Source: Candidatus Helarchaeota archaeon (GTDB taxonomy: Archaea; Asgardarchaeota; Lokiarchaeia; Helarchaeales; HEL-GB-A). From it: 15,165 nucleotides of DNA. The stretch lies in NCBI GenBank assembly GCA_016840125.1, contig JAEOSY010000654.1, positions 1 through 15,165 of the forward strand, in the 5' to 3' direction. This document shows positions 1-15,165 of the stretch, in pieces. How positions within the stretch are numbered: the stretch's first letter is position 1; the number at the start of each line of letters is the position of its first letter. The translations under genes and the position numbers were made by a program. The notes below the pieces were generated by a model that was not told the DNA's origin, ran no database searches, and saw only the letters and a list, made by a program, of their open reading frames with translations.

Positions 1-23
1 ATCTAAAGCACCTCTCAATGTAG

Positions 24-1292
24 ATGTTCAAATTCTCGATTAATCTTATTCAAGTACATTTAAAAATACGGTGGATCAATCTATTTTTTAGGAGAAAAGT
101 AGCAAGTATAGGCTTTGGTATGACGCCTTTCAAAGCGCGTTGGCCCGATAAAACGTATTTTGAGTTAGCCTATGATGCCTGTAATGAAGCGTTACAAGAT
201 GCTGGTATTACAATCAAAGAGGTAGACAGTGCGGTCTATGGGATATATAATGACCTCTTTGAACGTCAGTTCATGCCCGATATTTATGTGAATGACTATA
301 TCGGAAATATTAATAAACCCGGAACGCGCGTGACCACCGGTGGGGCGACTGGTGGGTTCGCAGTTCGTACTGGTTACATGGAAATTGCAAGTGGATTATC
401 AGATATTTGCCTTGTATTGGGTGTAGAAAAATGTAATGATTGTTACGATAAACTAACAGGTACAACAACGCCTGAGGTTCTAAAAGCAATAGCATACAGT
501 GTAGATATGACGTGGGAATTTCCCTTAGGGATGATGGCAGCTTCGAGTTATGTTGTCCTTGTAAACGCCCACTTCTATAAATATGGCAATCCAACAGAAG
601 AACAGATGGCAAAGGTCTCCATTAAAAACCATGGAAATGCTTTTAATAATCCGAAGGCTCAAACCCCTCTCAAACTGACTATAGATGATGTTTTAAACTC
701 TCGAATTATTTGTTATCCTTTCAAAATGTTGGATTGTTGTCTTTATTCAGAAGCATCCGCTGCACTCATTTTGGCGTCTGAAGAGCGCGTTAAAGAATTG
801 AAAATCAAAAATCCGATATGGATAACTGGAGTAGGGGCAGCTTGCACGGATGCTTTTACTGGAAATAGAAAAAATATCGGCTCCTTACCTTCTAATATCG
901 CAGCCGCAAAACAAGCATATAAATTTGCGGGAATCGAATATAAAAAGGCAAAATTGGCATTTGATGTTGTAGAATTGCATGATGCCTTCACGGGACAAGA
1001 AGTAGTATCCTATGAAGAATTAGGATTTGTTGAGTATGGGAAAGGTGGGGACTGGATTGATGATGGAGGACCGGAAATGTCAGGCGAATTACCCGTAAAT
1101 CCATCCGGTGGATTAATCGGCTGCGGCCATGCCGTAGGTGCTACGGGAATCATGTCAACGGGCGAAGCATTCCTTCAATTGCAAGAACGAGCTGGGAAGC
1201 GACAGGTTCCTATTACCAAAGGACGCGCCTTAAGCCATTCTATTGGGGGTCCAGGTGCTGCGTATGCTGCGGTTATTGTATTAGAACGATGA
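24..1292 (+). CDS. Thiolase-superfamily protein lacking the nucleophilic Cys, copy 1 (SCP-x type; aldolase-like?)
   Basis: Thiolase-fold acyl-CoA enzyme of the SCP-x/archaeal thiolase group, about 88% identical by eye to the next gene. The C-terminal half has the HDAF motif (H319) and GHAVGATG (H369), which match thiolase catalytic histidine regions. Where family members read roughly ACASGG with the nucleophilic Cys, this protein reads GGATGG, so the Cys is Gly (G107). Claisen thiolysis through an acyl-enzyme is therefore unlikely. Family precedent for such a change is the retro-aldolase Ltp2, which pairs with a DUF35 protein. The start is uncertain. The codon aligned with the ATG of copy 2 is AGG at 90-92. 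Usable in-frame starts are ATG 24, directly after a TAG and adding 22 residues, or ATG 120, which removes the first beta strand. The rest of the gene looks intact, with many synonymous differences from copy 2. Confidence 0.85.
   Translation: MFKFSINLIQVHLKIRWINLFFRRKVASIGFGMTPFKARWPDKTYFELAYDACNEALQDAGITIKEVDSAVYGIYNDLFERQFMPDIYVNDYIGNINKPGTRVTTGGATGGFAVRTGYMEIASGLSDICLVLGVEKCNDCYDKLTGTTTPEVLKAIAYSVDMTWEFPLGMMAASSYVVLVNAHFYKYGNPTEEQMAKVSIKNHGNAFNNPKAQTPLKLTIDDVLNSRIICYPFKMLDCCLYSEASAALILASEERVKELKIKNPIWITGVGAACTDAFTGNRKNIGSLPSNIAAAKQAYKFAGIEYKKAKLAFDVVELHDAFTGQEVVSYEELGFVEYGKGGDWIDDGGPEMSGELPVNPSGGLIGCGHAVGATGIMSTGEAFLQLQERAGKRQVPITKGRALSHSIGGPGAAYAAVIVLER
58..67 (+). promoter_or_regulatory. 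Possible TATA box for thiolase copy 1
   Basis: An ATTTAAAAAT stretch centred about 27 bp upstream of position 90, the site of the lost start codon. This is the archaeal TATA-to-start spacing expected for a leaderless message. If it is the promoter, the ATG at 24 would lie upstream of the transcript. AT-rich context makes this weak evidence. Confidence 0.25.
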
Positions 1293-1410
1293 AGATGATG
1301 TTAAATGATTACTCTGCGGCTCAGGATGATATATTTATGAAATTTAAAATTAAATTAATAGCGTTTATACGAGTTTCTATCAAGATTAAAAATAAGTTAT
1401 TAGAGAACCT

Positions 1411-1418
1411 TTTAATAT
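1411..1418 (+). promoter_or_regulatory. Possible TATA box for thiolase copy 2
   Basis: TTTAATAT centred about 28 bp before the ATG at 1442, consistent with an internal promoter giving a near-leaderless transcript of copy 2. No Shine-Dalgarno-like sequence precedes 1442, which fits a leaderless start. Chance matches are common in this AT-rich stretch. Confidence 0.25.
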
Positions 1419-1441
1419 TAATTCAGATCATTTTATTTTTT

Positions 1442-2644
1442 ATGAGAAAAGTAGCAATTATTGGATTTGGTATGACGCCTTTCAAAGCGCGTTGGCCAGA
1501 TAAAACGTATTTTGAGTTAGCGTATGATGCATGTAATGAAGCTTTACAAGATGCAGGTATTACAATCAAGGATGTAGACAGTGCGGTCTATGGGATATAC
1601 AATGATCTCTTTGAACGTCAGTTCATGCCTGATATCTATGTCAACGATTATCTCGGGAATATTGACAAACCCGGAACCCGTGTGACTACAGGTGGGGCAA
1701 CTGGTGGCTTTACTGTCCGAAGTTCCTATGCTGAGGTCGCAAGTGGGCTCTCGGATATCTGCTTGTGCCTAGGGGTGGAGAAGTGCAATGACTGTTACGA
1801 TAAGCAAACTGGGACAACCACACCTGAAGTTCTAAAAGCAATTGCTTACTCGGCCGATATGACCTGGGAATATCCATTGGGAATGCTCGCAGCCTCTAGT
1901 TATGTAGTACTCGTCAATGATCACGTCTATCAGTATGGAAATCCAACGGAGGAGCAGATGGCGAAGATCTCTATTAAAAATCATGGAAATGCGATCAATA
2001 ATCCGAAAGCCCAAGCACCAATGAAACTTACTGTTGAAGAAGTCTTGAATTCGCGAATTATCTGCTATCCCTTCAAGATGTTGGATTGCTGTTTGTACTC
2101 GGAAGCCTCAGCAGCACTCATTTTAGCTTCTGAAGAAAAAGTGAAAGAGTTAAAGGTCGAACAACCCATCTGGCTCGCGGGTGTCGGCGCGGCCTGTACT
2201 GATTCCTTCATTGGTAATCGAAAAAGTATTGGAGCATTACCATCGAATATTGCAGCTGCAAAGCAAGCCTACAAATTCGCGGGATTAGATTATAAAAATA
2301 TTAAAAATCTCTTAGATGTCGCAGAACTCCATGATGCTTTTACTGGACAAGAAGTTATTTCTTATGAGGAACTTGGTTTCGTTGAGTATGGAAAGGGTGG
2401 TGATTGGCTAGATGATGGAGGACCAGAAATGAGTGGTGAACTACCCGTAAATCCTTCTGGAGGGTTAATTGGGTGCGGACATGCGGTCGGTGCCACTGGA
2501 ATCATGTCAACTGGTGAAGCGTATCTTCAATTACAAGAGCGTGCAGGTAAACGTCAAGTCCCCATTAGTAAGGGTCGAGCCATTTCCCATTCAATAGGAG
2601 GACCGGGAGCTGCTTATTCAGCAGTAATTGTGATGGAGAGGTGA
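1442..2644 (+). CDS. Thiolase-superfamily protein lacking the nucleophilic Cys, copy 2 (SCP-x type; aldolase-like?)
   Basis: A 400-residue thiolase-fold protein, normal length for the SCP-x/archaeal thiolase group, beginning with the typical strand MRKVAIIGFG. HDAF (H297), GHAVGATG (H347) and a C-terminal SHSIGG segment (H383) are present. The nucleophile position is glycine: V81-T-T-G-G85-A-T-G-G in place of the usual ACASGG. Known Cys-less relatives such as Ltp2 of steroid catabolism are retro-aldolases acting on beta-hydroxyacyl-CoAs with a DUF35 partner. The gene directly downstream here is a DUF35 protein. I infer aldolase-like or otherwise non-thiolytic chemistry. The frame is also open back to ATG 1289, which overlaps the stop of copy 1 as ATGA and would add 51 basic and hydrophobic residues. 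I chose 1442 because it matches the family N-terminus. Confidence 0.88.
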   Translation: MRKVAIIGFGMTPFKARWPDKTYFELAYDACNEALQDAGITIKDVDSAVYGIYNDLFERQFMPDIYVNDYLGNIDKPGTRVTTGGATGGFTVRSSYAEVASGLSDICLCLGVEKCNDCYDKQTGTTTPEVLKAIAYSADMTWEYPLGMLAASSYVVLVNDHVYQYGNPTEEQMAKISIKNHGNAINNPKAQAPMKLTVEEVLNSRIICYPFKMLDCCLYSEASAALILASEEKVKELKVEQPIWLAGVGAACTDSFIGNRKSIGALPSNIAAAKQAYKFAGLDYKNIKNLLDVAELHDAFTGQEVISYEELGFVEYGKGGDWLDDGGPEMSGELPVNPSGGLIGCGHAVGATGIMSTGEAYLQLQERAGKRQVPISKGRAISHSIGGPGAAYSAVIVMER

Positions 2645-2649
2645 AAAAA

Positions 2650-3144
2650 ATGACGAAAAAGTACCATGAAATAGATGATCTCATCATAATGAATTACAAA
2701 TATGCATTAGGTGGACAGTCACATTTCTTCATAGAACTCAAAGATAAGAAGAAGATCTTGGGTGCAAAATGTGAAAAATGTAATACTGTATATTGTCCTC
2801 CACGAATAAATTGTTCCAAATGTTATCATCCAACTAGTTGGGTTCCTCTCAAGGACACGGGGACAATTAGGGTAAGTACTTTAGTCTGGTTCAGTACTTC
2901 AAAGTTTATCCAGAATGTACCCTATGCAGTTGGGTATGTTCAAATCGATGGCGCAACTACGGCGATAAATCAAGCAATTTTCTCAACATCTCTTAAGCCT
3001 TCAAAAATACGTCCTGGGGCGCCTGTCCGTGCCGTGTTTAAGAAGGAGCGGGAAGGGAAGGTCACTGACTTTTTCTTCGTGCCCGTGGATGAATATGAGG
3101 AATGGATTAAGAAACCAGAATTTGAGGGTGGTAAAAGTGGGTGA
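2650..3144 (+). CDS. DUF35 zinc-ribbon/OB-fold acyl-CoA-binding partner protein
   Basis: DUF35-type protein: an N-terminal helical lead, a rubredoxin-like zinc ribbon, then an OB fold. Counting from the GTG at 2641, the ribbon ligands are C44 and C47 (CEKC) and C58 and C61 (CSKC), with an extra C52. The OB part follows from about residue 68 (GTIRVSTLVWF) to the C-terminus. DUF35 proteins are obligate partners of archaeal HMG-CoA-pathway thiolases and of thiolase-like aldolases, bridging subunits and helping bind CoA substrates. The gene adjoins thiolase copy 2. I prefer ATG 2650 to GTG 2641, because the GAGAGGTGA at 2635-2643, which includes the thiolase stop codon, is a good ribosome binding site for 2650. 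A complex with one or both thiolase copies is inferred from adjacency and family behaviour. Confidence 0.9.
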   Translation: MTKKYHEIDDLIIMNYKYALGGQSHFFIELKDKKKILGAKCEKCNTVYCPPRINCSKCYHPTSWVPLKDTGTIRVSTLVWFSTSKFIQNVPYAVGYVQIDGATTAINQAIFSTSLKPSKIRPGAPVRAVFKKEREGKVTDFFFVPVDEYEEWIKKPEFEGGKSG

Positions 3145-3496
3145 AGGTAAGACTGAATCCGAAAAGATTTTGAAATTAATCAGTGAGAATGTTAAGGCTC
3201 AAAAAATTCTCGCTGCAGAAAATTGGAACGTAGTTTTTCAGTTTGAGTTAGATGATGAACCTGACCCTTTCTACATTGAAGTCAAAGACGGGAAAGCAAC
3301 TCTTCAAACTGGCGCGCATTCAGATCCTACATTGATCATCGCTGGTGAAGGCGCAAGTGTTGCGAGAGCATCTCGAGGCCAAGGTGATTTTACCCATTCA
3401 ATCAGCCGAGAGGAAGTCGAAGTAAAGAAAGGCAAGATAATTGAACTAATTCGGTATGGACGTGCAATCGCAGCTGCCCTTAAAGGTAAAAAATAA
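3137..3496 (+). CDS. SCP2 sterol-carrier-like lipid/acyl-CoA-binding protein
   Basis: A small protein of 119 residues matching the SCP2 fold: helical N-terminus, WNVVFQFEL strand, the DPFYIEVKDGKATLQTG strand-turn-strand, a DPTLIIAGE segment and a C-terminal helix ending in KGKK. SCP2 domains bind fatty acyl-CoAs or other lipids in a hydrophobic tunnel. In eukaryotic SCP-x the same domain is fused to a thiolase, so the neighbouring thiolases and DUF35 protein suggest substrate delivery to them. The GTG at 3137 is my start: it has GAGGGTGG at 3124-3131 as ribosome binding site and overlaps the DUF35 gene by 8 nt, implying translational coupling. GTG 3128 is an alternative. The frame is open further upstream to 3029, but that part reads as an out-of-frame shadow of the DUF35 gene. 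Confidence 0.85.
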   Translation: MGEGKTESEKILKLISENVKAQKILAAENWNVVFQFELDDEPDPFYIEVKDGKATLQTGAHSDPTLIIAGEGASVARASRGQGDFTHSISREEVEVKKGKIIELIRYGRAIAAALKGKK

Positions 3497-3541
3497 CCTT
3501 CCCTTTTTTTCTAAATTTAAGCGAAATTTACTCTATTTTTT
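3483..3541 (+). terminator. Terminator region after the thiolase/DUF35/SCP2 cluster
   Basis: Two stacked signals lie between convergent genes. AAGGT (3483-3487) pairs with ACCTT (3496-3500) and is followed by CCC and seven T. Then TAAATTT (3512-3518) pairs with AAATTTA (3524-3530) and is followed by CTCTA and six T. Archaeal RNA polymerase stops at T-runs, so the T tracts alone may suffice. The second hairpin overlaps the tail of the opposing ACAD gene. Confidence 0.55.
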
Positions 3542-5860
3542 GAGATTTTTATAAACTTCTCGTTTAATTAAAAAGCGGAGTATTTCTGAGGTGCCTGCCC
3601 CTATTTTACCAAGGCGGACATCACGAAGTAACCGCCCCACCACGTATTCATCCGTATATCCTATACCCCCTAGGACCTGTAGCGCGTCATCACAAACTTC
3701 TAGTCCATAATCACTCGCAAAAACGCGCGTAATTGCAGACAACATGGGAATATTTTTACCCAAATCAATGAGCCGACTTGCTTTCAGGATCAATGCGGAA
3801 GCAGCTTCAATCTTGATTGCCATTTCTGCGATTTTGAAGTTGACTCCTTCAAATCTTGAAATCGGTCGATTGAATTGCACGCGTTCCATGGAGTATTTAA
3901 TTGCGGTTTCAAAAGCAGCTTGCATGATTCCGAGCATCGTACTCGCGAAGATAAGTCGTTCTGTATCGAACTGGTTCATCATAATCTCATATCCTTGATT
4001 TTCCTTTCCAACTCGGTTTTCAATAGGAATTTCACAATTATTAAACTTTAAATGTGCAGCGGCAATACCTTCCATCCCATGTAAATTATAGACTTTCTCA
4101 ACTTTAAATCCTGGATTATCTGTTGGAACGAGATAACAACTCATATTTTGGCGTGGGGGTGCATTCTTATCGGTTATAGCAAAGACTAGCATGTAATCCG
4201 CTACTCCACCATTAGTTATAAATCTTTTTTCGCCATTTATGATATATGAGTTTCCCTTCTTTGTTGCCTTAGTCTGAATGGACGAAACATCACTCCCAGC
4301 CATCGGCTCAGTTATGCCTAAGCATGCAATTTTATCGCCACTAATTACTTTTGAAAGAATCTTTTCACGTTGTTCCTCAGTACCATATTTTCTAATAGGT
4401 TTTCCAAATAAAAGACATGAGGCCCCTCGAATCATATTGGCGGCTCCACTAGCTCGGGCAATTTCTTCAGCTATGATAGCTTCTTGGGCCCACCCTTTTT
4501 CTTGTCCACCATATTTCTTCGGGTGTGTATAGCCCAGATACCCCTCTTTACCCATCTTTTTAATGAGGGTGCGTTGATATTCCCCTGCTACGATTTTATC
4601 CATATATGGAAGAATTTCGGTCGTTGCGAATTGGCGTACTTTTTGACGTAAAGCATTTTCTTCTTCGGAATAGAAACGATGGCGATTACTAGGTGCTCCT
4701 TGTAATTCCTTATAGACTTCCCGTTGAATTAGGAATCGCATAATTTCACTCGAACCTGCTCCAATCATTCCCAACTTTATATCTCGCAAATAACGCTCCA
4801 CAGGATAATCTTTCGTATATCCAACACCCCCAAGGATTTGTACAGCATCATTGCAAACCTCAAATCCATAATCACTTATGAATGTTTTCGCAATTGCGGC
4901 CTCTTTCGTGGCTGGCACCTTCGGTGTAAGGTCACAGATTCGCGCTGCCCGTACCAGTAAAGCCTCCATAGCCTCAAGCTTTATTGCCATATCTGCAATT
5001 TTAAAGCTTACTCCTTCGAACTGCGCAATAGGTTTTCCGAATTGAACACGCTCGGTTGAATATTTTGCAGCTACTTCAAATGCGGACCGTGCAATCCCCC
5101 GAAGAGTACCTGAGTAGAAGGTACGTTCACCATCTAATTCATCCATGAGAATACGGAAGCCTTGATTTTCTTTTCCAAGTAAATTTTCAAGGGGGATTTG
5201 ACAGTTCTTAAACCTTAAATGTGCCGTTCGGGTCCCATGCATCCCAAGCAAATCATATACCTTTTCAACTTCGAATCCTGGAGTATCAGTATGGAAAATA
5301 AAGGCGCTCATGCCTTGATGCGCATTCACTTCTTTGTTTGTAATTGCGAACAGGCAAATATAATCCGCATCCGCCCCATTTGTAATAAATCGCTTCTCAC
5401 CGTTAATAATCCAGCATTTATTAGCTTCATCTAGTACCGCAGTAGTTTGCATGCCGGCTGTATCCGAGCCTACCAGTGGTTCTGTTATGCCAATGCAAGC
5501 AAGCTTTTCCCCCGCAATAATTGGTTTGAGATATTTTTCTTTTTGCTCTTCCGTACCAAATCCCAACATTGGGGTTCCAAACAGTATAATCGTGGCGCCC
5601 CTCGCCATATCAAGTGCTCCATTAGCGCTTCCAAGCTCCTGCGCTAGGATCGTTTCTTGAACCCATCCCCTGCCTTGCCCTCCATACTTTTTTGGGTGAA
5701 TCATGCTCAAATACCCTTTTTTCCCAAGCAATCGTAATAATTCCCGAGGAAACTTACCTTTTTCAATTTCCTCGATGTGTGGTGTAATCTCCTCTTTGAT
5801 AAACTTTTGAATTTCTTCACGAAATTGTAATTCTTCTTCGGTAAAGAGACAATTCAACAT
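3533..5860 (-). CDS. Tandem-fused (two-domain) acyl-CoA dehydrogenase
   Basis: A 775-residue protein made of two full-length FAD acyl-CoA dehydrogenase domains (about 1-388 and 395-775), each about the usual 380 residues. Each has the HPKKYGGQ helix region, ITEP..GSD flavin/substrate loop (125-133 and 516-524), INGEKRFITNG, an RVQF flavin contact (271-274 and 660-663) and the C-terminal GAG(S/T)SEI. The medium/short-chain catalytic Glu of YEGT is Ala in both halves (A368, A755). A Glu in LDGER (E245) and FDTER (E634) occupies the isovaleryl/long-chain-type catalytic position, so both sites look competent. The enzyme introduces an alpha-beta double bond into an acyl-CoA and passes electrons to an ETF-type acceptor; branched or bulky substrates are plausible. 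The start ATG has GAGGAG upstream. It converges with the thiolase cluster. Confidence 0.93.
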   Translation of the reverse strand: MLNCLFTEEELQFREEIQKFIKEEITPHIEEIEKGKFPRELLRLLGKKGYLSMIHPKKYGGQGRGWVQETILAQELGSANGALDMARGATIILFGTPMLGFGTEEQKEKYLKPIIAGEKLACIGITEPLVGSDTAGMQTTAVLDEANKCWIINGEKRFITNGADADYICLFAITNKEVNAHQGMSAFIFHTDTPGFEVEKVYDLLGMHGTRTAHLRFKNCQIPLENLLGKENQGFRILMDELDGERTFYSGTLRGIARSAFEVAAKYSTERVQFGKPIAQFEGVSFKIADMAIKLEAMEALLVRAARICDLTPKVPATKEAAIAKTFISDYGFEVCNDAVQILGGVGYTKDYPVERYLRDIKLGMIGAGSSEIMRFLIQREVYKELQGAPSNRHRFYSEEENALRQKVRQFATTEILPYMDKIVAGEYQRTLIKKMGKEGYLGYTHPKKYGGQEKGWAQEAIIAEEIARASGAANMIRGASCLLFGKPIRKYGTEEQREKILSKVISGDKIACLGITEPMAGSDVSSIQTKATKKGNSYIINGEKRFITNGGVADYMLVFAITDKNAPPRQNMSCYLVPTDNPGFKVEKVYNLHGMEGIAAAHLKFNNCEIPIENRVGKENQGYEIMMNQFDTERLIFASTMLGIMQAAFETAIKYSMERVQFNRPISRFEGVNFKIAEMAIKIEAASALILKASRLIDLGKNIPMLSAITRVFASDYGLEVCDDALQVLGGIGYTDEYVVGRLLRDVRLGKIGAGTSEILRFLIKREVYKNLKK

Positions 5861-5930
5861 TTAAAAGATGCTCCTCTGCGTTTTTCTAGACTACCTAACT
5901 TGATTGAAGCTAATAACTATTCCTAAGGCG

Positions 5931-6461
5931 TTAAATTTTTTTAATTCCTTTACATTTTTCAAGTGTGAAATCATCCAACCGTAACTCATTTTTTTTGTTA
6001 AAAGGAAATTTTCTACAGCCCTCGGGTTTAAGTTCTTGAATAAAACAAATATTACCCCTCAGAAATGGGCAGTCGTCGGACATTTCAGTAATAATTGTAT
6101 AATTTAATCCCATCTTCATACCTTCTAAAATAATTTCAAAACTTTTTGGATTTAAAATTGGTCTATTACTCCAATCAAGTTTGAAAAACGGTCTGTCAAT
6201 ATTAAACCCACGACCTTCACCTATATAGGTATGATTTTCTAATACGAACTTTATCAATTTCTCCCTCTTTTTCTCGCTCATTGCTTCAAGAAAATAGGGG
6301 GATATCGATTTGGGGTTAATTTGTACATACTTTAAGTAATTTTTCCTCTCATCGCGTTTCCAATTCAAAATATCACGCTTTGAAAGAGAAACCTCGACAG
6401 ATTCCTTACAGCAATTCGCACATCTCACACAATTATAATGGTAATTGGAATCATTGCCCAT
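5931..6461 (-). CDS. CxxCxxCC (YkgJ-like) metal-cluster protein
   Basis: A 176-residue protein of the YkgJ/PF03692-type family, predicted to bind zinc or an Fe-S cluster. The N-terminal CVRCANCC motif gives C11, C14, C17 and C18. The C-terminal half has CPFL (C131), C139, the CRKFPF signature (C149) and C170, which is the family's usual spacing. The middle (about 25-110) is a lysine-rich helical insert with no motif I know. The molecular role of the family is poorly defined; some members are linked to flagellin or protein-lysine methylation, others to unknown redox roles. ATG 6461 lacks an obvious ribosome binding site, so it may be leaderless. It is separated by 70 nt from the ACAD gene and 118 nt from the dehydrogenase, so operon membership is unclear. 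Confidence 0.82.
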   Translation of the reverse strand: MGNDSNYHYNCVRCANCCKESVEVSLSKRDILNWKRDERKNYLKYVQINPKSISPYFLEAMSEKKREKLIKFVLENHTYIGEGRGFNIDRPFFKLDWSNRPILNPKSFEIILEGMKMGLNYTIITEMSDDCPFLRGNICFIQELKPEGCRKFPFNKKNELRLDDFTLEKCKGIKKI

Positions 6462-6579
6462 AATTTATGATTAAGGAAATGCAATTTTTCAGTATTTTGG
6501 TTGCCTAATAGATAAAAGATAAATATCGAATTAGGACTGCAATGTTCGAGGGATTCCGATAAAATAACTATAATAGAAA

Positions 6580-7560
6580 TTATATTTTCACAACGATTTT
6601 GATAAATTTCCTCTCTCCGGGCTCCAAAAATTTGTTAAAAGCAGCCTCTATTTCCTTTAGAGACACGATTTCTGAGATTAGTGGACCGAGAGCAATTTTC
6701 TTTTTCTCGAATAACTCTATTGCATCGTGGATATCCTCGCTACTATGGCTTATTACACCCTTTATACCTATCTCCTTAGTATTCAGCATCATTAGTGGGA
6801 AGGAAACCTTTCCTCTATACATGCCTTCTAAGGTAATAGTTCCCCCCCGTTTTATCATATCTAGTGCCAGCATGAAGGCTTTTTCAGTGCCGGCACACTC
6901 AAAAATATACGAGGGAGCTCCATTTTCCTTAAAAAACTTTCTAAGTTTCGCTTTACTTGGAGGAAAAGTCACGGTCGCCCCTAACGTTACAGCCCTTTCT
7001 CTTAAAAATTGATGCGGCTCGATAACTATTATATATTCCGGGTCTCTCTCACTCAACAACACACTCAGGGTCGTTAATCCGATGTTTCCACCACCAATAA
7101 TTGCTATTTTCTCATACGACCCGATTTTTGATAATTTCATGCCACGCACCCCAATCGCAACCGACTCTACTAATGTGCATTCCTCAAATGGAATTGTTTT
7201 TGGTGCATGGAATAAGAACTCCTTCGGAACCTTCACGAATTCCGCAAAACCTCCATCATCGAAAATCCCTAAGCCTCTCAACTCCCCTTTAAAGACATCC
7301 AGCTGTACATTTATCCCTACTACTCTGTCTCTGATATTAAACCCCGAAATATTCTCTCCAAGCTCAACAACCTCTCCAGCTAATTCGTGCCCCATTATCA
7401 GCGGCGTCTGAAATAACTTGCCAACATAATTTGTGATATCGCTTCCACAGATTCCACAATAATGCACCTTCACTAATGCATCATCCGGACCGGGGGTCGG
7501 TTTTGGATAATCTTCCCGATAAACCAACTTTTTGATATCCTCAAAGACCGCAGCCCTCAC
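6580..7560 (-). CDS. Zinc-dependent MDR alcohol/polyol dehydrogenase
   Basis: A medium-chain dehydrogenase/reductase of 326 residues. The GroES-like domain has catalytic zinc ligands C38 (in CGICGSD), H58 and E59 (GHE) and E132 (LVES), the sorbitol/threonine-dehydrogenase arrangement. The Rossmann domain begins at IIGGGNIGL (154-162), with an acidic E181 after the second strand, suggesting NAD rather than NADP. The four cysteines of the structural zinc lobe expected around 85-105 are absent, as in sorbitol dehydrogenase. Substrate cannot be read from sequence. The start is GTG 7560: the nearby ATG at 7570 is out of frame, and GGAG lies 10 nt upstream. It follows RNase HIII by 19 nt, so the two are probably co-transcribed without an obvious shared function. 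Confidence 0.88.
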   Translation of the reverse strand: MRAAVFEDIKKLVYREDYPKPTPGPDDALVKVHYCGICGSDITNYVGKLFQTPLIMGHELAGEVVELGENISGFNIRDRVVGINVQLDVFKGELRGLGIFDDGGFAEFVKVPKEFLFHAPKTIPFEECTLVESVAIGVRGMKLSKIGSYEKIAIIGGGNIGLTTLSVLLSERDPEYIIVIEPHQFLRERAVTLGATVTFPPSKAKLRKFFKENGAPSYIFECAGTEKAFMLALDMIKRGGTITLEGMYRGKVSFPLMMLNTKEIGIKGVISHSSEDIHDAIELFEKKKIALGPLISEIVSLKEIEAAFNKFLEPGERKFIKIVVKI

Positions 7561-7579
7561 TTCTATTCATCTCCAGAAC

Positions 7580-8449
7580 TTATTTCTTTTTAGCTTGCAT
7601 TTTTTTAAGATAACTCACTTTCGCGACATGCTGCACGTATGGTAGGTCTAGAGCATTTTTGGGGGTTAAAGATCTCAGATCAAGCTCGAGTTCCTCTGAT
7701 TTTTTATCTATCCAAGTTTCGCGATAACTTTTAGCTAAAATACTTGCACTTGCCACTGATATGTTTTCTTCAGCATGGGGTTTTTGTATTATTTCAAAGA
7801 GTGAGGGATTAATCTTTCGTGAAAGGCGAATGTTTGTGATATATCGATTAAATTCATCGATAAGAATGAGATCCGCTTTAATTTTTTTAGGTTTGAGTAG
7901 ATCATGGACCTTACTAATCGCCATTGAATGCGCCCATGCGATGATTTCATCCAGCTTCTTCTGCTCATCATGGAACTCTTGGATCAGTTCATTGAAGCGT
8001 TTCGGATGCGTCGGAACACAATATGTGGCTAATGCGGTTTTTTTGATAAGAGGTGTGAGCTCTTGAATCCGTGAAACCGATAAATCTTTACTGTCCATTA
8101 CACCGTTCGCCTGAAGAAAAAGGCTTTGGTCTTTATCTAAACAAACGGCACATACAACTAAAGGACCTAACCATTCTCCTTTCCCCGCCTCATCTGACCC
8201 AATAATTATTTTTTCATTCCTCATTACATTTGAAAGAATTTCTTCCATCATTCTTGTCATTTTTATTATATTCTGAAAAACTATCTTCCCAGAATTATAT
8301 ACCACCACTAATTTCCCCGCAATTTTACCCCTTAACAACTCATATTGACTTGTTGTGGTGAGCTCGTTGAAATCTTCTTGATTCTTCAATTGAGCAGTGA
8401 ATTTATCTAAAAATTCCTTTGCAACTTTGATGGAAATGAGATCTCCCAA
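7580..8449 (-). CDS. rnhC: Ribonuclease HIII
   Basis: A 289-residue RNase H of the HII/HIII family, which cleaves the RNA strand of RNA-DNA hybrids. Residues 1-60 resemble the TBP-like N-terminal substrate-binding domain of RNase HIII, including YNSGKIVFQ (51-59), which matches the HIII signature YQSGKV.FQ. The catalytic part starts with GSDEAGKGEWLGPLVV (84-99; D86 and E87), followed by MDSKDLS (118-124), LIDEF (D198) and HAEENISVASASILAK (225-240; acidic E227/E228). The N-terminal domain and the GKGE..GPLVV form favour HIII over HII. The start is TTG 8449, six codons after an in-frame TAG, with GAGGAAGA as ribosome binding site; the next in-frame ATG would delete the N-terminal domain. HIII is typical of Firmicutes and some other bacteria and occurs in a minority of archaea. 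Confidence 0.9.
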   Translation of the reverse strand: MGDLISIKVAKEFLDKFTAQLKNQEDFNELTTTSQYELLRGKIAGKLVVVYNSGKIVFQNIIKMTRMMEEILSNVMRNEKIIIGSDEAGKGEWLGPLVVCAVCLDKDQSLFLQANGVMDSKDLSVSRIQELTPLIKKTALATYCVPTHPKRFNELIQEFHDEQKKLDEIIAWAHSMAISKVHDLLKPKKIKADLILIDEFNRYITNIRLSRKINPSLFEIIQKPHAEENISVASASILAKSYRETWIDKKSEELELDLRSLTPKNALDLPYVQHVAKVSYLKKMQAKKK

Positions 8450-8553
8450 GAATATCTTCCTCGACTAATTTTTGTACTAATCAAAGACAACATAAATAGT
8501 TAAAACCACATACTAAATTAAGTACTTCAGTATAATCAATAGAGGAATTTGGA
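8450..8553. promoter_or_regulatory. Divergent promoter region, RNase HIII / acyl-CoA ligase
   Basis: A 104-bp AT-rich gap between divergent genes. ATAAATA at 8492-8498 could be the TATA box for RNase HIII, placing its transcription start near 8468, just before the GAGGAAGA ribosome binding site. TTAAAA (8500-8505) or CTAAATTAA (8512-8520) could serve the ligase, whose AGAGGA ribosome binding site is at 8541-8546. Assignments are by position and composition only. Confidence 0.4.
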
Positions 8554-10083
8554 ATGACAATCGGAAAGTTAGTAAAAGCACAGGCTCAAAAGTTCGGTGA
8601 CAAAGTGTTTTTGTATTGGGAAGACATGACCGTTACCTTTGATCAGTTGAATAAGATTACAAATAAAGTCGCAAACATGTTATATGAATTGGGAATTCGT
8701 AAAGGGGACAAAGTAAGTGTTTTCCTCCCTAATATGCCTGAATATGTGTATTTATATTTAGGAATTCCGAAAATAGGTGCCGTGATTGGTCCTGTAAATG
8801 CTTTATTTAAAGGACGGGAAGTGCAATTTGTCGTCAGTCACTCAGAAGCAAAAATCCTAGTTACCATACCAAAATTCATGGACGTCGTGAATGAGGTTCG
8901 GGAGAAATTACCCGACCTTAAACACGTGATCGTGATAGGCGAACCAATAGACGGGACCTTAAAGTACCAGGATTTAATGGATAAAGCTTCCGAATCAGCT
9001 CCTCCTCCAGTTGAAATTAATGAAAAGGAGGATCCCGCAGCGATTCTTTATACTTCCGGAACCACTGGCTTTCCTAAAGGCATCCTTCAAACTCATTTTA
9101 ATATCAAACGGAATGCTGATATGATTACCAAAGCATTAAACCCAAAACCCGATTATCGATTTATGTTAATTCTCCCGTTATTCCACGTGAATGCGCAAAT
9201 TGTGACAGTTATGATGCCTTTGACTCTTGGCGCGAGTTGTATTTTAACTCCTGGGTTCTCCGCCACCAAACATTGGAACACTGTAGCTAAATATCGTGCT
9301 TCTACCTTCAGCGCTGTTCCAACGATCCTCTCTGTCCTATTACGAATCCCCCATAAGGATTTAGATCTGAGTTCATTGAAGTTTGTTATCTGTGGTGCGG
9401 CTCCTTTACCAGTAAAAGTGATGCAGGATTTCGAATCCACTTTCAATTGCAAGGTTGTTGAAGGGTATGGACTAACTGAAGGCACATGCGCCTCCTCAGT
9501 AAATCCTATGCCAACTGAAACCGAAGATCGGAGAAAAATTGGAAGCATAGGACTTCCTCTACCTGATACTGAAATGAAAATCGTAGATGAAAAAGGTAAT
9601 GATGTTCCGTCTGGTGTGAACGGTGAAATTATCATTAAGGGCGATAACGTCATGAAGGAATATTTTAAAAATCCCGAAGCCAATGCACAAACGCTCAAAG
9701 ATGGCTGGCTCTATACTGGGGATGTCGGTTACATGACGGAAGATGGCTTCTTCTTCATCATCGATCGTAAAAAAGACATGATCATCCGTGGTGGTGAAAA
9801 TATCTATCCACGGGAGATCGAAGAAGTGCTCTACTCCTACCCCGGCGTATCCCTAGCGGCCGTGATCGGCAAACCTGATGAGATTTACGGGGAAGTTCCC
9901 AAAGCTTTTGTTGTAATGAAAGAAGGCGAGACCGCAACGGCAGATCAAATCCTTGCCTTTTGTAAGAAGAACCTTGCAAATTATAAGGTCCCCCAATTTG
10001 TGGAATTCCGCGATGATCTGCCGAAAAATCCTACGGGGAAAATCATGAAGGTCCCTCTACGTGAGGAAGAAAAGGCAGAGTAA
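8554..10083 (+). CDS. AMP-forming acyl-CoA ligase (fatty-acid-type)
   Basis: A 509-residue ANL-superfamily enzyme that adenylates a carboxylic acid and transfers it to CoA. The core motifs are intact: YTSGTTGFPKG phosphate loop (166-176), FHVNAQ (210-215), YGLTEGT (305-311), WLYTGD with D390, DRKKD with R405, GGENIYPREIEE hinge/A8 region (413-424) and the C-terminal PTGKI with the catalytic lysine K496. There is no membrane segment. Length and motif spelling fit medium/long-chain fatty acyl-CoA or related acid ligases; specificity is not readable. It leads an operon with an ICMT-like methyltransferase (31 nt downstream) and an NTF2-like protein. Its most likely partner chemistry in the window is the double ACAD and the thiolase-fold/DUF35/SCP2 set, although it is transcribed apart from both. 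Confidence 0.93.
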   Translation: MTIGKLVKAQAQKFGDKVFLYWEDMTVTFDQLNKITNKVANMLYELGIRKGDKVSVFLPNMPEYVYLYLGIPKIGAVIGPVNALFKGREVQFVVSHSEAKILVTIPKFMDVVNEVREKLPDLKHVIVIGEPIDGTLKYQDLMDKASESAPPPVEINEKEDPAAILYTSGTTGFPKGILQTHFNIKRNADMITKALNPKPDYRFMLILPLFHVNAQIVTVMMPLTLGASCILTPGFSATKHWNTVAKYRASTFSAVPTILSVLLRIPHKDLDLSSLKFVICGAAPLPVKVMQDFESTFNCKVVEGYGLTEGTCASSVNPMPTETEDRRKIGSIGLPLPDTEMKIVDEKGNDVPSGVNGEIIIKGDNVMKEYFKNPEANAQTLKDGWLYTGDVGYMTEDGFFFIIDRKKDMIIRGGENIYPREIEEVLYSYPGVSLAAVIGKPDEIYGEVPKAFVVMKEGETATADQILAFCKKNLANYKVPQFVEFRDDLPKNPTGKIMKVPLREEEKAE

Positions 10084-10114
10084 ACCAAATTTTCCATTTT
10101 TTTAAGGGATGATT

Positions 10115-10738
10115 ATGTTTGTCGCTTGGTTAAATTTCGCAGTGTTGAATGTCTCTGGCGCTTTATTTACTTATATTTACATCCTCAGCGTTATGCCCAT
10201 TACCCGTGAAGAAAAAAGAGGCGAACGAGCTTGGAATGAATGCGCTCGCTACCGAATGATATCTGGCTTCCTCGAATTCGTGATGATGGTCAATCTAATC
10301 TTATGGATTTGGTTTCCAATCCCCGAATTAACCTGGATCGTGCATGAAAATTTTGTTATAGGAATAATAATTGGAGTTTGTATCGCGATCCCTTGCTTGC
10401 TGATTTTATTTAAGGGCTTTTTGGATGCTGGGAGCGAAACCATGACCCCTTCTAAAGAAACCACTATGTATGGAGGAATCTATAACCATATTCGCCATCC
10501 TCATACTGTAGGGGAAATGCCATTATTTATCGTGGTTGCCTTTGCCGTAAACTCCCTCTTTCTTGTTCTTTGGGCAACTATTTACATTCTCATAACTGTC
10601 CCAATTATTATCCATTACGAGGAGAAAGATCTTGTGAAACGATTTGGAGATGTTTATATTGAATACCAAAAAAATACTGGTGCCTTCATTCCTAAATTCA
10701 GGAAAAGAATGAAATATGACAGGGAGCCTAGTTCCTAA
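10115..10738 (+). CDS. ICMT-like membrane methyltransferase
   Basis: An integral membrane protein of about 207 residues from the isoprenylcysteine carboxyl methyltransferase / phospholipid methyltransferase group, which uses S-adenosylmethionine. I see hydrophobic helices near residues 5-27, 52-70, 82-102 and 138-168. The family signature follows: GGIYNHIRHPH (122-132) with the RHP SAM-binding motif, then YEEKDLVKRFGDVYIEYQ (170-187) with the paired glutamates and C-terminal tyrosine motif (numbering from the ATG at 10109). I prefer ATG 10115, because GGGATGA at 10106-10112 then acts as ribosome binding site. The methyl acceptor is unknown; lipid, quinone-like or small thiol substrates are possible. 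It lies 31 nt after the acyl-CoA ligase and 19 nt before the NTF2-like gene. Confidence 0.8.
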   Translation: MFVAWLNFAVLNVSGALFTYIYILSVMPITREEKRGERAWNECARYRMISGFLEFVMMVNLILWIWFPIPELTWIVHENFVIGIIIGVCIAIPCLLILFKGFLDAGSETMTPSKETTMYGGIYNHIRHPHTVGEMPLFIVVAFAVNSLFLVLWATIYILITVPIIIHYEEKDLVKRFGDVYIEYQKNTGAFIPKFRKRMKYDREPSS

Positions 10739-10757
10739 AATCTAGAGGATGAATTGA

Positions 10758-11216
10758 ATGCGTTTTTTTTCGGCAATAAAGAATTTCTTTTCAAACTTAT
10801 TGAAAAGAGAGAAGAATGGCGAAGAGACAAGTTCCGAAGAGCCGGTGAATGAAGTGTCAGATGAAGATGCCATAAGAAAATTTGCAGAAAAATACATTAA
10901 AGCCCTTAATAAAGGCGATCATAAATGGTTCCTGAAGAACGTTGATTTTCACGGGATGTGGGAATGGAATAAAGAGCAGATGGGCGACAGTTATACGCAA
11001 ACACCTGAAGAATTTGAAAAAGAATTCAATGATGGCGCGTATATATTAAAAAATAAGTGGGACAAACAATTTTCAATCAAATCGATTACAATCGAGGGCG
11101 AACGTGCAAAAGTTGAAATTGACGCTGTGGGTGCCAAAAGTATTGGATCTCCCCTAGTCTTAAGCAAAAAATCAGGTAACTGGAAATATATCATGGGGGC
11201 CGTTTGGTTCTGGTAA
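10758..11216 (+). CDS. NTF2-like small protein with N-terminal amphipathic helix
   Basis: A 152-residue protein of unknown function. Residues 1-17 form a likely amphipathic, basic helix (MRFFSAIKNFFSNLLKR) that could associate with membrane. An acidic linker (about 20-38) precedes a domain with NTF2-like layout: a helix with DEDAIRKFAEKYIKALNKGD, a WFLKN loop, a long middle insertion, then paired strands SIKSITIEGERAKVEID and GNWKYIMGAVWFW. That helix-then-sheet pattern resembles DUF4878/lumazine-binding-like folds, but I cannot name a family. The start has GAGGATGA 6 nt upstream. An eight-T run overlaps codons 2-5, a spot prone to sequencing slippage. It is the last gene of the ligase/methyltransferase operon. 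Confidence 0.7.
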   Translation: MRFFSAIKNFFSNLLKREKNGEETSSEEPVNEVSDEDAIRKFAEKYIKALNKGDHKWFLKNVDFHGMWEWNKEQMGDSYTQTPEEFEKEFNDGAYILKNKWDKQFSIKSITIEGERAKVEIDAVGAKSIGSPLVLSKKSGNWKYIMGAVWFW

Positions 11217-11247
11217 TTCCCCTTTTTTTTTATAAAAAAAGATAAAA
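11217..11247. terminator. Bidirectional terminator between convergent genes
   Basis: Nine T (11223-11231), ATA, then seven A (11234-11240) lie between the stop codons of the NTF2-like gene and the opposing orphan gene. Each strand therefore carries a T-run just after its gene, the usual archaeal termination signal, and the two runs can also pair as a weak hairpin. Confidence 0.55.
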
Positions 11248-11715
11248 TTAGAAATCATCATCTTCGATGTCTTTCACGCCTGTTGCTATTGAGCCCGTTG
11301 AGAATAGTTTCCAATACCCGTACTTGTTTTTCTTCATTTCTACGGGAGTTGGAAAATCCTTTCCCCCTGATTGGATGAATATCTTACTTGCTTTCTCGCC
11401 TCGTTTACATTTATCCTCAAGTACCACTAGATCATTATCATAGGAATATGCTTTATACTCATTCTCTGGCGTTCCTCCCAGATATGATTTAGGGGTATCT
11501 GGATCCTCTTTCATATGAGTGATTCGAAACTTCTCCGTGGGTCCAAGTAATCCTTTATCATTCAGGCGATTTTTGGGTACCGTCATTGCACACATTTTTT
11601 CGCCCTCGTCATTTCCATTGACGTATTCTATTGCTCCGATGATATAGCATTTAGTAGCTCCTTCTTCTGTTGTTCCTAACTTTTTCCATAACTTCTCAAA
11701 TTCACTTAGGTTCAT
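11248..11715 (-). CDS. Hypothetical protein, soluble, 155 residues
   Basis: I do not recognise this protein. It is hydrophilic, with no signal peptide or membrane helix. The N-terminus is helical (MNLSEFEKLWKKLG); the body alternates short strands with charged and Gly/Pro/Asn turns. Two motifs stand out: a PTEKFRITHMKEDP region and a C-terminal GYWKLFSTGSIATGVKDIEDDDF with an acidic tail. Three cysteines (C23, C42, C103) have no metal-site spacing. The GxWKL...GV ending resembles C-terminal strands of small beta-rich domains of unknown function seen in bacterial proteins, but I cannot assign one. ATG 11715 has GAGG about 8 nt upstream, and codon use looks normal, so the gene is likely real. 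It is transcribed alone towards the NTF2-like gene. Confidence 0.7.
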   Translation of the reverse strand: MNLSEFEKLWKKLGTTEEGATKCYIIGAIEYVNGNDEGEKMCAMTVPKNRLNDKGLLGPTEKFRITHMKEDPDTPKSYLGGTPENEYKAYSYDNDLVVLEDKCKRGEKASKIFIQSGGKDFPTPVEMKKNKYGYWKLFSTGSIATGVKDIEDDDF

Positions 11716-12056
11716 TCTTATTACCTCTTTTAATTATAATTTCATTTTTTTTTCGTGTAATTATTATAATCGGAACCCCATTAAAAGTTTATATCTATAG
11801 TTTCTGCACACTTTTACTATCGAAGTGATGATTATGCCCCGTGATGAACATTTTGATAAAAATTACCCCCCGTCCTTGAACAGCTTGATGAAGCAGAAAT
11901 CCTTAGCCAATTTCTAAAAAAAAGCACAAATAATACTGGGGTATGGGATGGAGTTCTACACTAATTACCAAAATTATTTAGGGGATTAGGGTAAAGGATT
12001 TTACATTTTTAATATATTTAAGATTTCGGTCTCGTCAAAAAATAATCAGAGTTTGA
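11716..12056. other. 341-bp intergenic region: promoters and a possible broken small gene
   Basis: Between two leftward genes. The left edge holds the orphan gene's AT-rich upstream region (ribosome binding site GAGG and a T10-class run in the + strand). A TTTATATC TATA-like box (11788-11795, +) precedes the frameshifted small reading frame described separately. From 11965 to 12036 I see only AT-rich sequence. The right edge is the terminator of the surface-protein gene. Confidence 0.5.
11834..11964 (+). pseudogene. Possible frameshifted small gene (43 codons across a C6 run)
   Basis: ATG 11834 opens a 27-codon frame ending at TAA 11915-11917. If the ribosome slips back one base, or one C is missing, at the six-C run 11866-11871, the frame continues with the protein-like sequence PPVLEQLDEAEILSQFLKKS to TAA 11962-11964, 43 residues in total. 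A TATA-like box lies about 42 bp upstream and GTGATG just before the ATG. The composite sequence is charged, helical and more protein-like than either frame alone. It could be a decayed fragment, a sequencing error in a small gene, or chance. Confidence 0.35.
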
Positions 12057-12058
12057 TT
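12037..12058 (-). terminator. Hairpin/T-run terminator of the TFB-surface protein operon
   Basis: On the minus strand AATCA (12058-12054) pairs with TGATT (12048-12044) around a five-base loop, followed by AT and six T (12042-12037). It overlaps the stop codon of the surface-protein gene. Confidence 0.5.
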
Positions 12059-13874
12059 ATTTCACGCTAAATGTAGCAAGATTCCGCTTAGTAAATCTCT
12101 TTTTTGCATAGATGATTGAAAGAATTGTTACACCGATACCCAGTAAAATGTAACTCATTGAATCCCAGATCTGTTGTAATAAAGTTAATTCGATTTCAAG
12201 GTCAAATATCAAATTAGAGGAAGAAATATTACCCGATCCTAAAAATTGGAATTCAATTTTCAAACTCGTAGCGTACGAGGGTGTCAAAAGAGAAAAGTTG
12301 ATCATTCCGTTAGTATTAGTTGTAATATTAAAGAATTTATCATTGATACTTAATTGTATTTTATGATTAGGGAGGGGTGTCCCATTTAATGCGTATAAAA
12401 CCGCCTGTATTGTAATTTCTTTTCCGGTAGATTCTTTGAATGGTCCTGTATATTCAAACTTCAAAATTGTAATTTTTTTTGTTAGGTTCGAAAATTGATA
12501 CACAGGAGTGCTGTTAAACCTAAAATTAAAAGAAATATAGGCTTCTTGGATTCGCTTCGGAGGATCCCATATCAATGAGGCAGTTCCATTTGAACCGAAT
12601 TCCAATAATCCAAGATTCCAATTAGTATTATTATAATGCGCTCCAATTTCGATGGACTCACTTATTTTAACTCCATGGCTCACCAAACTATCTGTGATGC
12701 TTATGAGGCAAGAGATACTAGTTTGGTTTTCATATCGATAAAATGAAGCGTCCAATTCAGTCGGGCGTCTTTTCACTTCTACAGAGTGATTGAATTTGAC
12801 ACTCTTACCACTTGGGATCGGATGGGCAATAAAATTGATGATATATCCTCCCGCGGTATTAGGGCTATTGAGAGTCGCCAAATATTGATTTCCGTTCTTT
12901 GAACAAAATCCACTTTCAAATTCAGAACTGAAACTGATATTTGCTTCAAAACTACTTTGAATTATAAAGAAAATTTTTGAGAAATTGGAATCATCATACT
13001 CCACATACGTATAAATGCTTTCAGGATTGAGTAAAGTACAATTTATAGACTGTTCTTCATCGAATATTTCAAACTGATAGGGATAACTTGTGGGCTCGTA
13101 GTCCGTTGTCGCATCATTTTCCAATTGAATAGTACAGATCCCCGCTTCGAGCGCAGAACAATTCACCGTAAAATTTAGGATACCCTGAGAATCAGTATTT
13201 TCTGAAAAATTTAGGGTATTTTCCCCATTGCTTAGGTTAATCTTAATACGTCCATTCGCAAACGCATAAGTTTCAGTATGTTCGTTATGAATGAAAAAAC
13301 TCAGATTCAGGAAATCGGATGAGAAGATTGCTGAAGGTGGTCCTTCAAGGAGAGAGTAATTTAATTGAGCTTTTCTTATTTCTGTATCGTTCTCTGTTTG
13401 ATTAGAGTATATGATGAAATCCATCGGATTAGACATATTAAATATTTTTATCTTTATTCGTCCTTTACAGAGATCAGATGCATTAAAGCGAACGGGGGTA
13501 ATGGAGAAAATCTCAGTCACGTTGTGAAATTCGACACCCTCGATTAAACTATTTCTATATTCAAACCAAGTCGGTTTATCCAGGCCAATCATTCCATACT
13601 CTCTTAAATACCCTGGATTACACTGCATGGAATAAATTGTTGAGACTGTAACATTTTCTCCTATCTCTGCAAAGGTCTTATCGACCGTTAGATTGTAGAT
13701 ACTGACAGTGCCATAATCATCCAGCGTTCGGAAACCAATTCTATTGGGGTCATATTCTTGAACTAGGGTTGTGGTATCATCAAAAATCCATGGTGTATGT
13801 GTGCTTATCAAAGAATTTAGGCAAAGAAAAAAGAAAAGAGCAGTGATTATGCAAGACGATGTTTTTCTATACAA
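12057..13874 (-). CDS. Exported, C-terminally membrane-anchored beta-rich surface protein
   Basis: A 605-residue protein with an N-terminal hydrophobic segment (about 8-25, signal peptide or anchor), a long extracytoplasmic region and a C-terminal transmembrane helix (about 572-590) followed by a basic tail (KKRFTKRN), so most of it should face outside. The ectodomain is strand-rich, with repeated Ig-like or macroglobulin-like passages such as ITIQAVLYALNGTPLPNHKIQLSI-type blocks near the end, and holds over twenty N-x-S/T sequons, as expected for an archaeal surface glycoprotein. Paired cysteines (for example NCSALEAGIC) suggest disulfides. The start is TTG 13874, directly after an in-frame TAG, with GAGGAAGAGG upstream; no in-frame ATG exists near. 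It lies 24 nt after the TFB gene, hence the same operon. Ligand or role is unknown. Confidence 0.8.
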   Translation of the reverse strand: MYRKTSSCIITALFFFLCLNSLISTHTPWIFDDTTTLVQEYDPNRIGFRTLDDYGTVSIYNLTVDKTFAEIGENVTVSTIYSMQCNPGYLREYGMIGLDKPTWFEYRNSLIEGVEFHNVTEIFSITPVRFNASDLCKGRIKIKIFNMSNPMDFIIYSNQTENDTEIRKAQLNYSLLEGPPSAIFSSDFLNLSFFIHNEHTETYAFANGRIKINLSNGENTLNFSENTDSQGILNFTVNCSALEAGICTIQLENDATTDYEPTSYPYQFEIFDEEQSINCTLLNPESIYTYVEYDDSNFSKIFFIIQSSFEANISFSSEFESGFCSKNGNQYLATLNSPNTAGGYIINFIAHPIPSGKSVKFNHSVEVKRRPTELDASFYRYENQTSISCLISITDSLVSHGVKISESIEIGAHYNNTNWNLGLLEFGSNGTASLIWDPPKRIQEAYISFNFRFNSTPVYQFSNLTKKITILKFEYTGPFKESTGKEITIQAVLYALNGTPLPNHKIQLSINDKFFNITTNTNGMINFSLLTPSYATSLKIEFQFLGSGNISSSNLIFDLEIELTLLQQIWDSMSYILLGIGVTILSIIYAKKRFTKRNLATFSVK

Positions 13875-13898
13875 CTATTGTCATACCTCTTCCTCAGA

Positions 13899-14933: not shown

Positions 14934-14938
14934 GGTAC

Positions 14939-15011
14939 AAACCCCAGTTATTTAGCTACAAAGATAGTCCCACTCCCAATCTTAAAGATGTGGGGTCTAA
15001 GTCTTGGGTTT
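14939..15011. repeat. Nested inverted repeat in the TFB upstream region
   Basis: Outer arms AAACCCCAG (14939-14947) and CTTGGGTTT (15003-15011) pair at 8 of 9 positions. Inside, CCCAC (14969-14973) pairs with GTGGG (14990-14994), and ATCT (14979-14982) with AGAT (14986-14989). The element begins 5 bp before the TFB start codon, so in the message it would be a leader structure enclosing the region just upstream of the ATG; as DNA it could be an operator. Confidence 0.45.
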
Positions 15012-15050
15012 AATACACAAATAAATACCCTCAAACGACCCCTTTGTATT

Positions 15051-15165
15051 ATGAAAAGTATAAAAAAAGGGGGATACGGGCGGGGGGTAATTTCCAAGTT
15101 GCGCATTTTTGAAAAATTTGAGGGGTTTTTATATGCTCATCAGGTTATGTGGTCAGCATTAAAAT
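15051..15165 (+). CDS. Possible 5' end of a gene running off the window
   Basis: ATG 15051 opens a frame that stays open for 38 codons to the window edge (begins MKSIKKGGYGRGVISKLRIF, with aromatic and charged residues later). There is no clear ribosome binding site and I recognise no family. It would be divergent from TFB. The frame is too short to separate from chance; a 50-codon minus-strand frame overlaps the same stretch. Confidence 0.25.
   Translation, partial: MKSIKKGGYGRGVISKLRIFEKFEGFLYAHQVMWSALK

Follow-up and report, generated by a model that had tools for sequence, protein, structure and literature searches.

Two aldolases of the thiolase fold, Ltp2 and Sal, carry a glycine at the position of the thiolase nucleophile and work with DUF35 partner proteins; their catalytic residues are Tyr294, within a YDHF motif, and Tyr344 in Ltp2, and Tyr302 and Cys304 in Sal, according to PMC12329534. 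A comparable arrangement is found in contig JAEOSY010000654.1 of a Candidatus Helarchaeota archaeon (assembly GCA_016840125.1), whose positions 1 to 15,165, all 15,165 nucleotides analyzed, are called the window in the following. Here two tandem genes on the plus strand encode thiolase-fold proteins, copy 1 and copy 2, followed by a DUF35 gene and by a weakly recognized SCP2-type gene. Both copies lack the nucleophilic cysteine (Cys). The pair is probably best read as part of a Cys-less branch of the SCP2-thiolases which, together with the DUF35 protein, would act as an aldol-type lyase or ligase on carbon-carbon bonds of acyl-coenzyme A (acyl-CoA) substrates, with two histidines (His) in the catalytic role.

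The relevant segments of copy 2 read RVTTGGATGGF, ELHDAFTG and GCGHAVGATG, and identical motifs are present in copy 1. HMMER alignments place Gly85 of copy 2 opposite the cysteine of the CASG segment both in an archaeal acetoacetyl-CoA thiolase (6esq) and in a P. furiosus thiolase (7yvy). Judging from the secondary structure of an AlphaFold2 model of copy 2 (mean predicted local distance difference test score 90.9, predicted template modelling score 0.92, 77 sequences), Gly85 is the second residue of a helix spanning residues 84-100, which is the usual site of the thiolase nucleophile. The two copies are 88% identical in protein sequence over 397 residues, while their DNA is only 77% identical; the ratio of nonsynonymous to synonymous substitution rates (dN/dS) is about 0.02 and synonymous sites are saturated, so that both copies have been under purifying selection for a long time.

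The family alignment contains 219 sequences, i.e. 218 database proteins and copy 2. The nucleophile column holds a glycine in all 215 rows which are not gapped there. Given this uniformity and the low dN/dS between the copies, the absence of the cysteine from both is neither chance nor decay. The histidines are kept as strictly: His297 is found in 218 of 218 filled rows, all of them with the HDAF motif, and His347 in 217 of 219, missing only from two fragments (P0064, 310 residues, and P0071, 325 residues). Tyr53, Arg59 and Gln60 are each present in 216 of 216 rows, Asn54 in 215 of 216. The initial annotation, made from the window alone, had stated that both copies lack the cysteine, keep the histidines of HDAF and GHAVGATG and are well conserved with respect to each other; all three statements hold, the first two practically throughout the family.

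A first protein search, in which 7999 candidates were scored, gave 2603 matches at E values up to 1e-20. Among the best 120 of these, taken together with the two copies, 119 sequences have a glycine at the nucleophile column and 3 are fragments with no residue there. Source names among the matches listed include Promethearchaeota, Helarchaeota, Hermodarchaeota, Thermoplasmata, Methanomassiliicoccales, Nitrospirota and Manganitrophaceae; Deltaproteobacteria, Thermodesulfobacteriota, Planctomycetes and Bacillota are added by the 120 listed of 1428 matches to P0097, a natural thiolase-DUF35 fusion. Relatives are thus found in Asgard archaea, in Thermoplasmatota and in several bacterial phyla. In JGI they are labelled acetyl-CoA acetyltransferase or C-acetyltransferase, where a label is given, and in NCBI mostly thiolase family protein. 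Against the acetyl-CoA acetyltransferase equivalog NF053570, copy 2 scores 273 bits for a cut-off of 600, and it reaches the cut-off of none of the 25 curated NCBIfam families listed (of 33). The warning in the initial annotation that the name acetyl-CoA acetyltransferase would mislead is therefore pertinent, as some sources do give this name to relatives. The residue which forms the acyl-enzyme is missing from the family, and to count the family as a beta-oxidation thiolase when the metabolism of Asgard archaea or uncultured bacteria is reconstructed would be an error. No report of this Cys-less family in archaea was found in the literature searched, which covered subscription papers sparsely and preprints not at all.

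The genomic surroundings were evaluated in 54 loci, detected in a genome scan with patterns derived from the query and hence representing close relatives only. All 54 are titled Helarchaeota, Lokiarchaeota/Lokiarchaeia or Sigynarchaeum, the closest being two Helarchaeota loci, L001 (92%) and L002 (90%). The adjacent DUF35 protein of the initial annotation is real: it matches PF12172 and PF01796 above cut-off, has a four-Cys ribbon and matches the DUF35 subunits of 6esq, PhlB and Ltp2-ChsH2. In 49 of 55 loci, window included, the gene immediately downstream of the thiolase encodes a DUF35 protein; four of the six exceptions (L030, L037, L039, L054) stop at a contig end, leaving L005 and L042 as real ones. 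No further fusion was seen when the 120 listed matches to P0097 were searched for other domains. An SCP2-like relative is found beside the thiolase in most other loci.

In the sister Helarchaeota loci, the same stretch contains a fused acyl-CoA dehydrogenase (ACAD), a CoA ligase and a MaoC-type hydratase. The latter adjoins the ligase in L001 (11405-11959) and lies two genes from it in L105, from the genome of L002, the two hydratases being 72% identical; it is absent from the window, unlike the sister loci. The fused ACAD of the window has 775 residues forming two complete units, with open reading frames (ORFs) of the same length at 73-78% identity in L001 and L002. The combination of ACAD pair, MaoC hydratase, DUF35 protein and Cys-less thiolase corresponds in kind to the set of ChsE1-ChsE2, ChsH1-ChsH2 and Ltp2. 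A crotonase-type hydratase is located within 10 kb in 23 of the 55 loci.

From the loss of the cysteine, the DUF35 partner and this gene set, a reaction sequence may be proposed, whose direction, substrate and single-residue roles are all conjectural. The CoA ligase would activate an acid, the double ACAD would convert it to a 2-enoyl-CoA and a hydratase, MaoC in the sister loci, would give the 3-hydroxyacyl-CoA. This would be cleaved by the Cys-less thiolase without an acyl-enzyme, to yield acetyl- or propionyl-CoA together with a ketone or an aldehyde, or formed in the reverse direction. Gly85 may leave room for the beta-oxygen and hydrogen-bond to it, in the manner suggested for Ltp2 and Sal, and acid/base and enolate-stabilizing roles may fall to His297 and His347, perhaps with Tyr53 and Arg59. 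Tyr53, Asn54 and Arg59 could reach the active site. A 3-hydroxyacyl-CoA dehydrogenase is found within 10 kb in 3 of the 55 loci, a rarity which would favour aldol cleavage but carries no weight. The rarity of this enzyme was discarded as a discriminating sign, being uninformative: none was found either in 16 regions around thiolases in four genomes, of which L102 and L096 hold the orthologue itself, L089 a 58-59% identical paralogue, and 13 surround other paralogues only.

The two histidines could also decarboxylate a substrate of the malonyl- or methylmalonyl-CoA type, as Cys-less ketosynthases do; both histidines of a ketosynthase-like site are kept, and the near-invariant Arg59 could bind the carboxylate. 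This is considered unlikely, as the neighbours encode enzymes of acyl-CoA oxidation and activation and no carboxylase was recognized among the 14 window proteins scanned with Pfam. According to PMC12329534, TbSLP, which also lacks the cysteine, slowly decarboxylates malonyl-CoA (kcat 0.005 per s), whereas Sal showed no such activity. A Claisen-type condensing or thiolytic enzyme, in which a second thioester or CoA attacks directly and no covalent acyl-enzyme is formed, would suit a fold closest to that of the archaeal acetoacetyl-CoA thiolase, and would suit the retained HDAF and GH, the former being found also in the Cys-containing 7yvy. It is nonetheless improbable, in view of the absence of any invariant cysteine able to take over and of the argument, in PMC12329534, that Sal, with its glycine, is incapable of thiolytic cleavage. 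Little credence is likewise given to a non-catalytic pseudo-thiolase, binding acyl-CoA or organizing a DUF35/SCP2 channel: the missing nucleophile and the Lokiarchaeal thiolase-thiolase pairs with adjoining DUF35 genes, in which one partner is more degenerate, would be in keeping with such a scaffold, but a dead enzyme would not be expected to retain near-universal catalytic histidines, nor is decay indicated by the dN/dS between the copies. Finally, a true thiolase using Cys115, Cys118 or Cys345 is very improbable, since these residues, of which Cys118 (186 of 219) and Cys345 (184 of 219) are common and Cys115 (166 of 219) less so, are nowhere invariant and are replaced by Ala, Ser, Thr, Leu and Asn among others; all three were rejected as family-wide nucleophiles, including the two, C115 and C118, named as possible substitutes in the initial annotation.

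A separate feature, perhaps more striking than the loss of the cysteine itself, was observed in orthologues of the window genes. In 12 of the 54 loci (L030, L040, L043-L047, L050-L054), all Lokiarchaeota/Lokiarchaeia by title, the thiolase gene contains insertions, 25 in total and each of 29-34 nucleotides, which introduce stops or frameshifts and recur at sites near residues 121, 142, 146, 174 and 301. Up to four are found in one gene (L051, e.g. 10001-11337) and none in the window copies. In archaea, bulge-helix-bulge (BHB) junctions consist of a 4-bp central helix between two 3-nucleotide bulges, located at the exon-intron junctions. This geometry was first spotted by eye on folds of the same insertions. 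The complete central helix can be formed in 21 of the 25 insertions at a placement compatible with the conserved reading frame; elsewhere it is found at 3 of 406 placements. The placements allowed were those scoring no more than 6 points below the best match to intronless relatives, on average 4.8 per insertion, which brings the chance per insertion to a few percent; moreover, insertions at the same site are interrelated (22 distinct sequences), so that the 25 do not count as independent cases. Many of the outer helices are incomplete: a stricter test, also demanding an unbroken outer helix of at least 3 pairs, fitted only some sites, and 4 of the 25 insertions fail on the central helix alone. 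The mean fold z is -2.3, relative to 60 mononucleotide shuffles of each insertion.

When 574 ORFs of 180 residues or more from the 54 loci were scanned, interruptions of 15-150 nucleotides came to light only inside the thiolase gene, in eight loci (L044, L046, L047, L050-L054). The scan needs an uninterrupted homologue with at least 45% identity in another locus and misses whole-codon insertions, such as those of L030, L040, L043 and L045. A single assembly error is unlikely, because the twelve contigs come from metagenome-assembled genomes which differ in isolate name and in the style of their contig names. No close family member besides the interrupted gene was found in the L046 genome, where the next match is 38% identical. 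The insertions look like candidate tRNA-type (BHB) pre-mRNA introns; if so, such introns would be present in the archaeal group nearest to eukaryotes, the Asgard archaea. A rival explanation to splicing is that translation bypasses the hairpins. Confirmed archaeal pre-mRNA splicing is given as limited to cbf5 in PMC2738675 (2009), and PMC11291895 treats Asgard introns in tRNA genes. In the literature searched, with the same coverage as above, no report of BHB introns in Asgard protein genes was found.

Taken as a whole, the following picture is tentative. The family would be a new class of acyl-CoA aldolase active site, with the cysteine lost, both histidines kept, the near-invariant Tyr53, Asn54 and Arg59 added and a DUF35 partner; anaerobic archaea and bacteria would use it for the direct cleavage of beta-branched acyl-CoAs (isoprenoid-like or hydroaromatic) once these had been dehydrogenated and hydrated, with neither ketone formation nor carboxylation, and in some Lokiarchaea the gene would be expressed only once up to four BHB introns had been cut out of its mRNA.

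The features of the window are collected in Table 1. The ATG start of copy 2, shared by the 97% identical P0001, is replaced in copy 1 by AGG at positions 90-92, so that the N-terminus of copy 1 is uncertain; the window begins 89 bases upstream of this triplet, and the cause may be a sequencing error, the use of another start or early decay. Downstream of the SCP2-type gene, the minus strand carries the genes for the fused ACAD, a CxxCxxCC protein, a zinc-type alcohol dehydrogenase and a ribonuclease HII-type protein. Rfam and tRNA scans of the window gave no Rfam match at the gathering threshold and no tRNA.

Table 1. Positions and strands of the features identified in the window.
Feature	Position	Strand	Remarks
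Cys-less thiolase-fold protein, copy 1	99..1292 (homologous part)	+	ORF open from 24; start codon uncertain
Cys-less thiolase-fold protein, copy 2, 400 residues	1442..2644	+	Gly85, His297 (HDAF), His347 (GHAVGATG); family-only Tyr53/Asn54/Arg59
GGATGG codons, residues 84-89 of copy 2, with Gly85 replacing the nucleophilic Cys	1691..1708	+	computed from residue numbers
DUF35 partner, zf-ChsH2 zinc ribbon (four Cys) and OB_ChsH2_C	2689..3144	+	ORF open from 2641
SCP2-like sterol-carrier protein	3131..3496	+	start uncertain, ORF open from 3029; weak, 22.0 bits for a cut-off of 21.3
Acyl-CoA dehydrogenase, two fused ACAD units	3533..5860	-	halves 54% identical
Zinc-type alcohol dehydrogenase family protein	6580..7560	-	also present in L001
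Acyl-CoA ligase (AMP-binding)	8554..10083	+	also present in L001 and L002
TFIIB-like protein	13899-14933	-	weak: Pfam zinc ribbon under cut-off, TFB family 35 bits versus 384

Other gene associations were noted in the remaining loci. Further pairs of Cys-less thiolases, with DUF35 genes on one or both sides, are found in Lokiarchaea and Sigynarchaeum (L005, L008, L009, L013, L020, L026, L044, L046); one partner reads GGTTGG with YSPF, and the other has a gap at the nucleophile segment. In L006 a glycyl-radical enzyme (2136-4529, 798 residues, pyruvate formate lyase-like) and acyl-CoA dehydrogenases lie near a Cys-less thiolase of the 473-residue type; L022 and L032 contain ORFs equal to this enzyme in length. 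Two further kinds of gene were named by eye: a threonine-aldolase-like one, which is repeatedly found at about 5.7 kb from the Lokiarchaeal thiolase (L013 and 17 other loci), and amino-acid ATP-binding cassette (ABC) transporter-like ones, recurrent in other clusters.

Among proteins of the same fold, the nearest in signature are Lokiarchaeal proteins of 473 residues, whose best family match is PRK06365, under the family cut-off. They share the Gly/His/His signature and form a sister branch in the tree, but are only 32-34% identical, with GCMH for GCGH and Phe-Ala-Asp for Tyr53-Asn54-Arg59. In a comparison of 62 rows, L062 being masked, Tyr53, Asn54 and Arg59 occur together only in the window family, while Gln60 is common to others. 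The tree, built on 59 rows with motif columns removed, explains the Gly/His/His signature by one change, leading to 30 rows which comprise the window family and the 473-residue one. A single origin of the loss of the cysteine across the superfamily was rejected, as the tree requires 5 changes and does not support one clade of all Cys-less proteins; in these counts L061_2620 is scored as Cys-containing on a doubtful alignment, L062 has masked letters and L074 is apparently frame-shifted in that region. For a common branch with Ltp2, the tree contains one Ltp2-like row, with an end branch of 1.9 and a long-branch warning.

TbSLP, the SCP2-thiolase-like protein of Trypanosoma brucei (5ab4), similarly lacks the thiolase cysteines and, according to PMC12329534, has no settled reaction. 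The thiolase of 6esq, associated with DUF35 and 3-hydroxy-3-methylglutaryl-CoA synthase, differs in having the nucleophilic cysteine and HDCF and in lacking Tyr53, Asn54 and Arg59; HDAF is present in 7yvy together with the cysteine. The bile-acid aldolase Sal-Shy(DUF35) (9myr) resembles the window pair in the glycine at the nucleophile site and in the DUF35 partner, and differs in Tyr302 of its YDxF/YDxY motif and in Cys304, in place of which the window family has His297 and Ala299. The steroid side-chain retro-aldolase Ltp2-ChsH2(DUF35) (6ok1) has a thiolase fold without the cysteine and a DUF35 partner, and the genes for acyl-CoA dehydrogenation and MaoC hydration combined in the sister loci extend the likeness. 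Its sequence reads GGGA at the nucleophile segment, followed by YDHF and EAYIHG, so that its two tyrosines coincide with, or adjoin, the positions of the thiolase histidines; the window family has His297 of HDAF and His347 instead. At the catalytic positions of Ltp2 and Sal, practically every member of the family has His297, Ala299 and His347, and the copy 2 model is closer to true archaeal thiolases, above all the acetoacetyl-CoA thiolase, than to either aldolase; the aldolase chemistry is for these reasons put forward conditionally. Of the retro-aldolase likened to Ltp2 in the initial annotation, the part excluding an ordinary Cys-dependent thiolase is upheld, and the identity with the Ltp2 type is not. 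If an aldolase, the family would offer anaerobes a route for the cleavage of branched acyl-CoAs and would represent a third catalytic solution on this fold, beside those of Ltp2 and Sal.
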